Shown piece by piece: positions 7 to 2,298 of a stretch of DNA of 24,209 bases. The position numbers and the translations under genes were made by a program. The notes beneath the pieces are model-generated. The model saw only the letters and a list, made by a program, of their open reading frames with translations. It was not told where the DNA came from and ran no database searches. Within the stretch, counting starts at the first letter, position 1. Each line of letters opens with the position of its first letter. The stretch comes from a virus: the IMG/VR virus record IMGVR_UViG_3300023235_000129, positions 1-24,209 of that record; one strand, 5' to 3'.

Positions 7-2298
7 TTGAGCGAAACCGATAAGCGCGAACTCCTTCGCATGATGGAGGCACAGGTCGAGAACAACGAGAAAGGCAGGCTCTTGCGGTTGTACGAGGCCA
101 TGTATCCTTGGCAGAGGAGGTTTAATAAAGCAACGTCAGAGAACCTAGCAAGCCTGCTAATGGCGGCAAATCAGTGCGTTTCTGGTCACACCCCTATTCT
201 AGTGAAGCAGGGAACGGTTGAGAAGTGGCTCCCTCTCGTAGAAACTCTTTCCTTGCCAGATGTGCGTGTTCGCTCGTGGGCTGATGGATCGCTACATGAT
301 GCAGATATAGCGGGCGCATACTTTCAGGGAATTCTGCCAACGTATCGTTTATATCTATCAAATGGTCATCACCTAGACTGCTCGGGTGAGCATAGGGTAT
401 TAGACGGCGAGGGGAATTACCGTACCATTCTTTCTTTAGTGTCTGACTTAGATGCTCTGAGTTACTACCAAACAGGCGAAGATTCTCGGGCCCGTTGTGA
501 CGAGGGTGATTGTCTCTATGGTCAACCACTTCCCCCTGGTTTAAATATCGCCCCAGCATTACTTCCATTACTAGACGATGCTCTGCAACATATCCAGAAC
601 CCCCGTCTTTCGCCGCAGGATGCAGCGGAGCATACTGATCAATATAACCAAGCTTTCCAATCCGCCGACCTCCTTTCCAATGGGGGTGCTCGGAACCATG
701 CCGAGGGCCTGATCGACAAGTTTTCATCTTGCAGCGAGCTGCCGCCCTCTGGACTGATGTTAGGTTTACTCCAAGTATCTGAGCTGCTTCACGATGAGTC
801 AGCAAGTCCTCTTCGATCATGGACTTCAATCGGTTCATGCAGAATCTACGGTTATGGTGCGGCTTACAGCAATCGCATATACTTTCCACGGCCTATCTCC
901 TTAGTGGGTGATGTCAGTATTATAGCATTTCAAGGAATTGGTTTACAGCCATGCTTTGACTATAAGATACCGGATTATCACAATTACATTTCGGCGGGAG
1001 TAGTCAGCCACAACTGCGGAAAGACACGTACTGGCTGCATCATTGACGCCTATCACCTAACAGGCAACTATCCCGAAGGATGGGAGGGGCACAAGTTCAA
1101 GCGTCCTCCACTGTGCTGGCTATTAGGCCACTCAGGCGAGAAAACCCGCGATCTACTTCAACAGAAGCTATTCGGCAGGCTCAAGGATGGCGAGTTTGAG
1201 GGCGGATTCATATCCGCTGACTTGATCGTGGATTACAAATCCATGACCGGAACCTCTGGGGCTTGTCGTGAGGTACGAGTCAAACATGCTAACGGCATAT
1301 CGATCTGTCAATTCTGGTCATACTCACAAGGCCAGCACGCATTGATGGGCGACGTTGTAGACTGGTATCACATTGACGAAGAACCCAAAGACCAGACCAT
1401 CTATCCACAGGTAATGACGCGGACGCTCAACGGTGACAAAGGGGCTGGTGGTCGAGGCATCCTCACGCTAACCCCTGAGAACGGCAAGACTGATTTAGTG
1501 TGCGGGTTTATGGATGACCCAACAGACGGCCAGTACATGCAAACTGCAACATGGGATGATGCGCCACACTTGGACGAGACTACCAAAGAACAGATCCTTT
1601 CGGCCTATCCACCGTATCAGCGTGATATGCGCTCGAAGGGCATCCCATTGATGGGTTCCGGCCTAATCTACCCTGTTAGCCAAGACTCCATAAGCATTGA
1701 GCCGTTCAAGATACCTGATTACTGGTTCGTGATTAACGGCATGGACTTTGGATGGAATCACCCACAGGCACACGTTCAGCTCGTATGGGATCGAGACAAT
1801 GACATGTACTACATCACTAACGCCTGGAAGGGCAAGGAGAAGCAACCGTTTGAGGCGTGGCACGTTGTAAAGCCTTGGGCTGCCGATATACCCACAGCAT
1901 GGCCTCACGATGGCCTACAGCACGAGAAGGGGTCCGCCAAGCAGCAGAAGGAGTATTACGAAGAGGAAGGATGGATGATGTTGGCCGAACACGCTACGTG
2001 GCCTGATGGATCTAATGGAGTATGGGCTGGCATTACTGAGATAATCAACCTAATGGATACAGGGCGGTTTAAAGTCTTCTCTAACTTGTTTGATGTGTTC
2101 GAGGAGATTCGGGAGTATCATACAAAAACCACGCCATCGGGTGATGTGCTTATAGTCAAGACCAAAGATGATATACTAGATTCGATTCGATACGCCTATA
2201 TGATGAGGCGTTACGCTATTCGAATATGCGACATTAACCAGCAGTATCAAGACACTAATCGGAACACAGTAACGGCGGGTAACTATGACAACTTCTAA
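7..2298 (+). CDS. terL: Terminase large subunit (packaging ATPase/nuclease) precursor with in-frame intein
   Basis: This is the motor that pumps phage DNA into the prohead and cuts the concatemer. The precursor has 763 residues; removing the 280-residue intein leaves 483, normal for a TerL. The Walker A loop is split: residues 51-56 give LMAANQ and residues 337-340 give CGKT, rejoining to AANQCGKT. Walker B is WYHIDEEP with D457/E458. The RNase H-like nuclease acids are D580 (in GMDFGWN), D635 (in WPHDG) and D721/D722/D725 (in KTKDDILDS). The frame has a TAA at 4-6, so the start must be TTG at 7 or ATG at 40. TTG is preferred because no Shine-Dalgarno precedes ATG 40 and the upstream gene, probably small terminase, seems to end at the TAA. 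The 3' end overlaps the next small gene by 14 nt. Motifs are seen directly; the family name is by recognition. Confidence 0.93.
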   Translation: MSETDKRELLRMMEAQVENNEKGRLLRLYEAMYPWQRRFNKATSENLASLLMAANQCVSGHTPILVKQGTVEKWLPLVETLSLPDVRVRSWADGSLHDADIAGAYFQGILPTYRLYLSNGHHLDCSGEHRVLDGEGNYRTILSLVSDLDALSYYQTGEDSRARCDEGDCLYGQPLPPGLNIAPALLPLLDDALQHIQNPRLSPQDAAEHTDQYNQAFQSADLLSNGGARNHAEGLIDKFSSCSELPPSGLMLGLLQVSELLHDESASPLRSWTSIGSCRIYGYGAAYSNRIYFPRPISLVGDVSIIAFQGIGLQPCFDYKIPDYHNYISAGVVSHNCGKTRTGCIIDAYHLTGNYPEGWEGHKFKRPPLCWLLGHSGEKTRDLLQQKLFGRLKDGEFEGGFISADLIVDYKSMTGTSGACREVRVKHANGISICQFWSYSQGQHALMGDVVDWYHIDEEPKDQTIYPQVMTRTLNGDKGAGGRGILTLTPENGKTDLVCGFMDDPTDGQYMQTATWDDAPHLDETTKEQILSAYPPYQRDMRSKGIPLMGSGLIYPVSQDSISIEPFKIPDYWFVINGMDFGWNHPQAHVQLVWDRDNDMYYITNAWKGKEKQPFEAWHVVKPWAADIPTAWPHDGLQHEKGSAKQQKEYYEEEGWMMLAEHATWPDGSNGVWAGITEIINLMDTGRFKVFSNLFDVFEEIREYHTKTTPSGDVLIVKTKDDILDSIRYAYMMRRYAIRICDINQQYQDTNRNTVTAGNYDNF
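194..889 (-). CDS. HNH homing endonuclease encoded antisense inside the intein
   Basis: The gene encodes 231 residues on the strand opposite terL, wholly inside the intein. Residues 1-20 are Cys/His-rich (CDCC, HH, FC), like a decayed zinc ribbon. Residues 28-55 form a helix-turn-helix (THREAAQILGVNLTSVQRAA). Then come HPHWKGG and GYI..YAP. The HNH core runs from about 100 to 150: AEHRLVMEVMLGR, GEVVDH (D123, H124), HNGPENLRLF (N132, N136) and SNSEH (H146). This is the order seen in phage homing endonucleases. The last ~80 residues (nt 194-433) match no domain and are the complement of the intein N-terminal splicing domain, so they are probably a read-through tail. The start is GTG 889, seven bases after AAGGAG, with TGCTATAAT upstream. 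It presumably cuts intein-less terL near the P-loop; that target is inferred. Confidence 0.88.
   Translation of the reverse strand: MESICDCCKPHHNRRFCMNRLKSMIEEDLLTHREAAQILGVNLTSVQRAAARCKMKTCRSGPRHGSEHPHWKGGRRIGKLGYIDQYAPLHPAAKDGGSGYVAEHRLVMEVMLGRYLNQGEVVDHRDNHPRHNGPENLRLFGSNSEHLSQTLKKEWYGNSPRRLIPYAHPSSLGDDHLIDINDTLAEFPESMRPLYLHHVAIHQPTSEHAHLARKEFLREGATSQPFPASLE
890..902 (-). promoter_or_regulatory. Ribosome binding site deciding the GTG start of the HNH gene
   Basis: Minus-strand bases 902-897 read AAGGAG, a consensus Shine-Dalgarno, followed by a 7-nt spacer and GTG at 889. This favours the GTG over the internal methionines at residues 18 and 24, and argues that the antisense frame is translated. 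Confidence 0.75.
919..947 (-). promoter_or_regulatory. Extended -10 promoter for the antisense HNH gene
   Basis: On the minus strand, bases 927-919 read TGCTATAAT, a perfect extended -10 element. The -35 region at 17-bp spacing (947-942) is TGTAAA, a 3/6 match, as is usual for extended -10 promoters. Initiation would fall near 912, about 23 nt before the GTG at 889. The whole promoter lies on the antisense strand of codons for the intein C-terminal splicing domain. It implies recognition by host sigma-70-type RNA polymerase, independent of terL transcription. Confidence 0.65.

Follow-up and report, generated by a model that had tools for sequence, protein, structure and literature searches.

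A homing-type HNH endonuclease gene encoded antisense within a phage terL intein

An intein in terL and a gene on the opposite strand

Mobile inteins were thought to carry their endonuclease as part of the spliced polypeptide, or between the halves of a split intein. The first gene of a 24,209-nucleotide viral sequence (IMG/VR virus record IMGVR_UViG_3300023235_000129, positions 1 to 24,209; hereafter the window) raises the question of whether the endonuclease can instead be a separate gene on the other strand. A preliminary description made from the sequence alone had proposed this layout: an intein in the P-loop of terL, an essential DNA-packaging gene, with an HNH homing-type endonuclease gene written on the opposite strand. 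To test this, we first re-examined the reading frames, and the observation is confirmed with its coordinates correct. The features of the locus are as follows.

7..2298 (+), terL precursor ORF (763 aa, TTG start): N-extein, intein and C-extein
163..174 (+), first part of Walker A in the N-extein (AANQ), after which the intein is inserted
175..1014 (+), intein, 280 aa (C1 ... H279-N280), a single continuous frame
175..444 (+), N-terminal splicing half (predicted Hint fold, about residues 1-90)
445..873 (+), sense linker (about residues 91-233), predicted disordered, not conserved in the family, no endonuclease signature
877..1014 (+), C-terminal splicing half (about residues 235-280)
1015..1026 (+), start of the C-extein, CGKT (+1 Cys and GKT of Walker A)
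194..889 (-), HNH endonuclease gene, 231 aa, GTG start at 889, stop at 194-196; antisense codon position 1 lies opposite sense codon position 1
897..902 (-), Shine-Dalgarno AAGGAG, 7 nt upstream of the HNH GTG
713..838 (-), predicted helix-turn-helix (HTH) DNA-binding domain of the HNH protein
437..580 (-), HNH (beta-beta-alpha) core: EHRLVMEVMLGRYLNQGEVVDHRDNHPRHNGPENLRLFGSNSEHL
194..444 (both strands), stretch where the HNH C-terminal region and the N-splicing half overlap in opposite directions

The precursor matches Pfam Terminase_6C (4.6e-20) and Terminase_6N (8.1e-14). The window's sense insert alone matches the Pfam intein splicing profile only weakly (6.4e-4; 20 bits, below the gathering score of 35.8), although relatives exceed this score (44.7 for L166; L numbers denote the sequences compared here). 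In an alignment of 53 relatives only splicing residues are invariant: C1, the block-B His (H73), Y271, H279 and N280. The +1 residue is Cys in the window and C, S or T in relatives. A profile of these 53 relatives matched solved inteins at both ends and left the middle unaligned (9.4e-24 for 4o1r). Consistent with this, the AlphaFold model of the window intein has a confident Hint fold at residues 1-90 and 235-280 (pLDDT about 93-97), whereas block means across the linker are mostly 40-59, with one block at 72. A Foldseek search with the model returned DnaE, DnaB and RecA inteins (E down to 6.6e-6). No nuclease family was found in the window's sense insert or in any of the 53 sense inteins, and a conventional intein with an in-frame endonuclease between blocks B and F was therefore rejected. 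A fractured gene with a split intein was also rejected, since the precursor is a single continuous ORF in the window and in the loci tested.

To identify the antisense product, we searched it against Pfam and PHROG. It hits HNH_3 at 2.2e-6, above the curated cut-off (27.7 versus 24.8 bits), and PHROG HNH families down to 7e-21. Of 56 members, 54 hit HNH_3, and E103, H107, N115, N119, N126 and H129 (numbered from the M at 838) are invariant in all 56. The structural model (mean pLDDT 85.9, pTM 0.75) has three N-terminal helices (residues 2-10, 15-22 and 26-35) and a strand-strand-helix at 104-134. VIA-align gave matches only to HTH domains over residues 1-42, and relatives have HTH Pfam hits. 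A Foldseek search of the PDB with the model likewise returned only HTH domains, with no significant match for the HNH part, which was a weak test of the small HNH fold, and a sequence profile reached I-HmuI (1u3e) only at E 0.0046; these observations leave the match to a solved HNH fold undecided, and the nuclease assignment rests on sequence profiles and conserved residues. An inner ATG at 838 was considered as the start but lacks a Shine-Dalgarno, whereas the AAGGAG upstream of the GTG at 889 supports the start proposed in the preliminary description.

A family with a single register

To determine whether the layout is unique to the window, we searched for relatives. With the single HNH sequence as query, viral contigs gave only two near-identical contigs, and an alignment query was needed. 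Two alignment-guided scans of IMG/VR with HNH queries and one with the sense intein (252 + 203 + 147 matches) gave about 175 distinct contigs. In all 174 loci tested, the HNH lies antisense within a long open frame, in the same register as in the window. The third scan was seeded with the sense intein, and 80 of 80 matches carried the antisense HNH, although that query contains the linker and may favour inteins that keep it. The HNH gene is contained in the intein in 134 of 139 cases. This amends the preliminary description: the layout is that of a large family, not a single oddity.

Nine sequenced phages carry the layout: Pectobacterium phages Koroua, Amona, Taid, Pappous, Ymer, Abuela and Sabo, Dickeya phage Setonix, and Pseudoalteromonas phage PHS3 (the DNA was read for Koroua, Setonix, Ymer and PHS3; the others were identified by tblastn match). 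So do a Nitrosospira MAG and the prophage of E. coli MEI003. A search of plasmids and a search of E. coli with the window intein gave nothing. Host genes include several TerL families (Terminase_6, Terminase_3) and, in L141 (2490-4760, -), a SNF2-like helicase gene, interrupted at its Walker A loop, so the class is not confined to terL. Two Walker A sites are used: before xGK[ST] in 131 of 139 inteins with defined boundaries, and after GK in 8; a few boundaries were assigned automatically and may be off. The second site, two residues downstream (GK|S/T), is the classic P-loop intein position and is used by a minority (L101, L102, L104, L112, L113, L115, L118).

To assess whether the antisense gene is a cistron of its own, we examined the sequence upstream of its start. 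A Shine-Dalgarno of 5 bases or more precedes the best HNH start in 35 of 76 representatives, against 3.3% for matched control starts. A promoter scan upstream of the HNH gene in the window found nothing above chance.

Both strands are under selection

In this register the wobble base of each frame faces position 2 of the other, so that selection on the two strands can be separated by codon position. In close pairs, substitutions in the HNH core fall at sense position 2, opposite the antisense wobble base (by sense codon position, L149/L158 [4,34,0], L142/L163 [2,14,1], L125/L129 [8,34,3]), while in terL plus the rest of the intein they fall at position 3 ([83,51,273], [19,6,194] and [112,84,330], respectively). 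Over 15 pairs, antisense dN/dS is 0.05-0.31, while the same bases read in sense give 0.8-9.7; TerL C-exteins, where calculable, give 0.02-0.21. These values come from a simple Nei-Gojobori count, not a model for overlapping frames. The window's own intein has no moderately diverged close relative, so its codon-level test used five relatives of 47-55% HNH identity: amino-acid identity in the HNH core is 0.47-0.55, versus 0.24-0.33 for the same DNA in sense.

To test whether the open sense frame could arise by chance, we shuffled HNH codons synonymously. Shuffles of the window's HNH gene give a mean of 5.6 stops in the sense frame, and about 1 in 2,000 is stop-free. Across 56 non-redundant relatives, 320.8 stops are expected and 0 were seen, whereas eight free-standing HNH relatives have 4-9 stops in that frame. 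The other two sense frames average roughly 7 and 10 stops.

The preliminary description had also held that one stretch of DNA must serve two proteins. In ten pairs, divergence where the HNH C-terminus overlaps the N-splicing half is 8.5% and spread over positions [42,69,68]. It is 15.6% for the HNH core over the linker ([147,432,115]), 13.4% for the C-splicing region alone ([50,33,113]) and 22.1% for TerL ([570,356,1849]). The claim is therefore fully true only in the overlap, where both proteins are constrained; this dual constraint was measured in close pairs of relatives, not in the window itself. Under the HNH core the sense linker is essentially unconstrained except for staying stop-free.

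The intein and its HNH gene move together

To look for mobility, we compared inteins with the genes that host them. L160 and L161 have 95.5% identical inteins in terL genes only 57% (N-extein) and 59-67% (C-extein) identical (56-67% across terL); the corresponding values are 91% versus 52-73% for L125/L129 and 95% versus 63-78% for L244/L247. HNH identity follows splicing-domain identity (rho 0.70) more than TerL identity (0.39). Intein-free alleles of terL (for example, the FVAGFGSGKTWIG allele) are uninterrupted at the exact insertion point: AANQVGKT and ASNQCGKT for the window, AGFGTGKS for the Pectobacterium type and AGFGSGKT for the E. coli type. The intein-free relatives of the window's terL that read ASNQCGKT (L015 and L020) already have Cys at the intein's +1 position, and their DNA is nearly identical to the window's flanks. 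Of 774 E. coli genomes with the MEI003-type terL, only MEI003 matched the intein.

A proposed mobile intein with an antisense homing endonuclease cistron

The interpretation in the preliminary description is supported by these results. It had named in advance what would count against it, namely an antisense frame with no HNH profile hit and no codon-level constraint, or related terL inteins lacking the gene; the profile hit and the constraint were both found, and related terL inteins do carry the gene. With high confidence, we interpret the locus as a mobile intein whose homing endonuclease is not a domain of the spliced polypeptide but a separate gene lying entirely inside the intein's DNA on the opposite strand, with the sense linker a disordered, stop-free passenger. 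In this view the sense strand is translated as one TerL precursor, and the Hint domain, two halves joined by a long disordered linker, excises itself and restores the Walker A loop. The antisense gene would be transcribed and translated on its own to give an HTH-HNH_3 endonuclease, which most likely cuts or nicks intein-less terL alleles at the Walker A codons, so that repair copies the intein plus antisense gene into the gap. The sequence comparisons demonstrate the two reading frames, the family-wide layout and register, purifying selection on the antisense frame, selection for a stop-free sense frame, dual constraint in the overlap, the ribosome-binding sites, co-movement of intein and HNH between diverged terL genes (comparative evidence only) and exact insertion. 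Splicing, antisense transcription, the cleavage site and homing are inferred, as neither precursor splicing nor transcription nor cleavage or nicking of an empty allele was assayed.

If this is correct, nuclease level no longer follows TerL level, and the nuclease can die without touching splicing. A broader reading, which we consider likely, is that a large, previously undescribed class of inteins in tailed phages has coupled splicing and homing by bidirectional coding: the endonuclease is an independently regulated antisense cistron, so that its dose and timing are uncoupled from host-protein synthesis, and its C-terminal region and the N-splicing domain are true sense/antisense overlapping proteins held in one register across the family. 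The separation may let the nuclease be expressed early or at low level while TerL is a late protein, but this is speculation. The family also provides a natural set of long sense/antisense protein overlaps, at more than 80 diverged nuclease types, in which the two strands can be dissected by codon position.

Of the alternatives, all of which we consider very unlikely, the best surviving is that the antisense ORF is real but dead in most phages, the inteins being fixed passengers that homed only in the past. Homing endonucleases typically decay after fixation, and in L269 (3001-3900) the antisense frame is broken by a stop codon while the sense intein stays open, a plausible decaying endonuclease. 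However, L269 was the only one of 80 inteins found through the splicing blocks with a broken antisense frame, and both the low dN/dS between close pairs and the recent transfers at about 95% intein identity argue against this. Next, the HNH protein could be a packaging accessory that the phage needs, as HK97 gp74-type HNH proteins next to terminase genes are; HNH proteins near terL can be required for packaging, and conservation of the nuclease would fit. Yet almost all intein-free close relatives of this terL have no such insert, 773 of 774 E. coli genomes with the MEI003-type terL did not show the intein in the search made, the HNH tracks the intein and crosses with it between diverged terL types, and one copy lies in the SNF2-like helicase gene. 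Slightly less likely still, the gene might mainly dampen terL expression through its transcript or protein, with nuclease homology a relic; convergent antisense transcription would be expected to interfere and an N-terminal HTH is present, but a relic would lose the core residues that are invariant across 56 diverged members and the low dN/dS over the nuclease core. Finally, although antisense shadow ORFs are common in GC-rich genes, a shadow of a conserved sense domain or of base composition is refuted by the codon-position, dN/dS and stop-codon results, and it is the antisense protein, not the sense one, that has free-standing homologues elsewhere.

Relation to known systems

Conventional inteins with an in-frame endonuclease include the phage TerL P-loop inteins TerL1-a/-b of mycobacteriophages (PMC5050341) and the intein of cyanophage CL131 dCTP deaminase (PMC6293099). 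They share the Hint domain, Walker A insertion and mobility, and CL131 even uses the same HNH_3 nuclease family, but there the nuclease is part of the sense polypeptide. Antisense homing endonuclease genes occur in nuclear rDNA group I introns of Didymium (PMC9548176), opposite the splicing element and host gene and expressed as their own transcript, with expression and cleavage shown experimentally. In that case the host is a self-splicing RNA and the opposite strand does not have to remain a protein-coding frame, whereas here both strands are protein-coding and share bases. Fractured genes, in which a free-standing endonuclease gene lies between the halves of a split intein, also couple phage inteins to a separately translated endonuclease but break the host gene and intein into two genes (Dassa et al. 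2009, NAR 37:2560); here the precursor stays one continuous ORF that the endonuclease gene overlaps in antisense. Free-standing phage HNH_3 endonucleases (for example, Halobacterium phage phiH, MW202481, mycobacteriophage Thibault gp148) have a homologous nuclease domain but are ordinary genes outside any intein, and stand-alone HNH relatives found in bacterial genomes have no long antisense ORF. Full-text searches of 5.39 million open-access papers, which did not extend to subscription journals or preprints, found no description of an antisense endonuclease gene in an intein. The parts are known, and what appears new is their architecture, in a large family.

Annotation of the locus and shorter variants

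Standard gene annotation tends to miss this family. In E. coli MEI003 (L340, 4026-6313; NZ_CP071263.1), RefSeq calls the antisense HNH gene and marks the intein-bearing terL as a pseudogene ('incomplete, missing N-terminus'), although the ORF is continuous. In PHS3 terL is truncated, and in the Pectobacterium phages annotated at this locus terL is 'hypothetical' and the HNH gene is missing. Two loci, L280 (275-952) and L281 (1230-1907), have shorter inteins (226 aa) whose antisense HNH appears to lack the N-terminal HTH.
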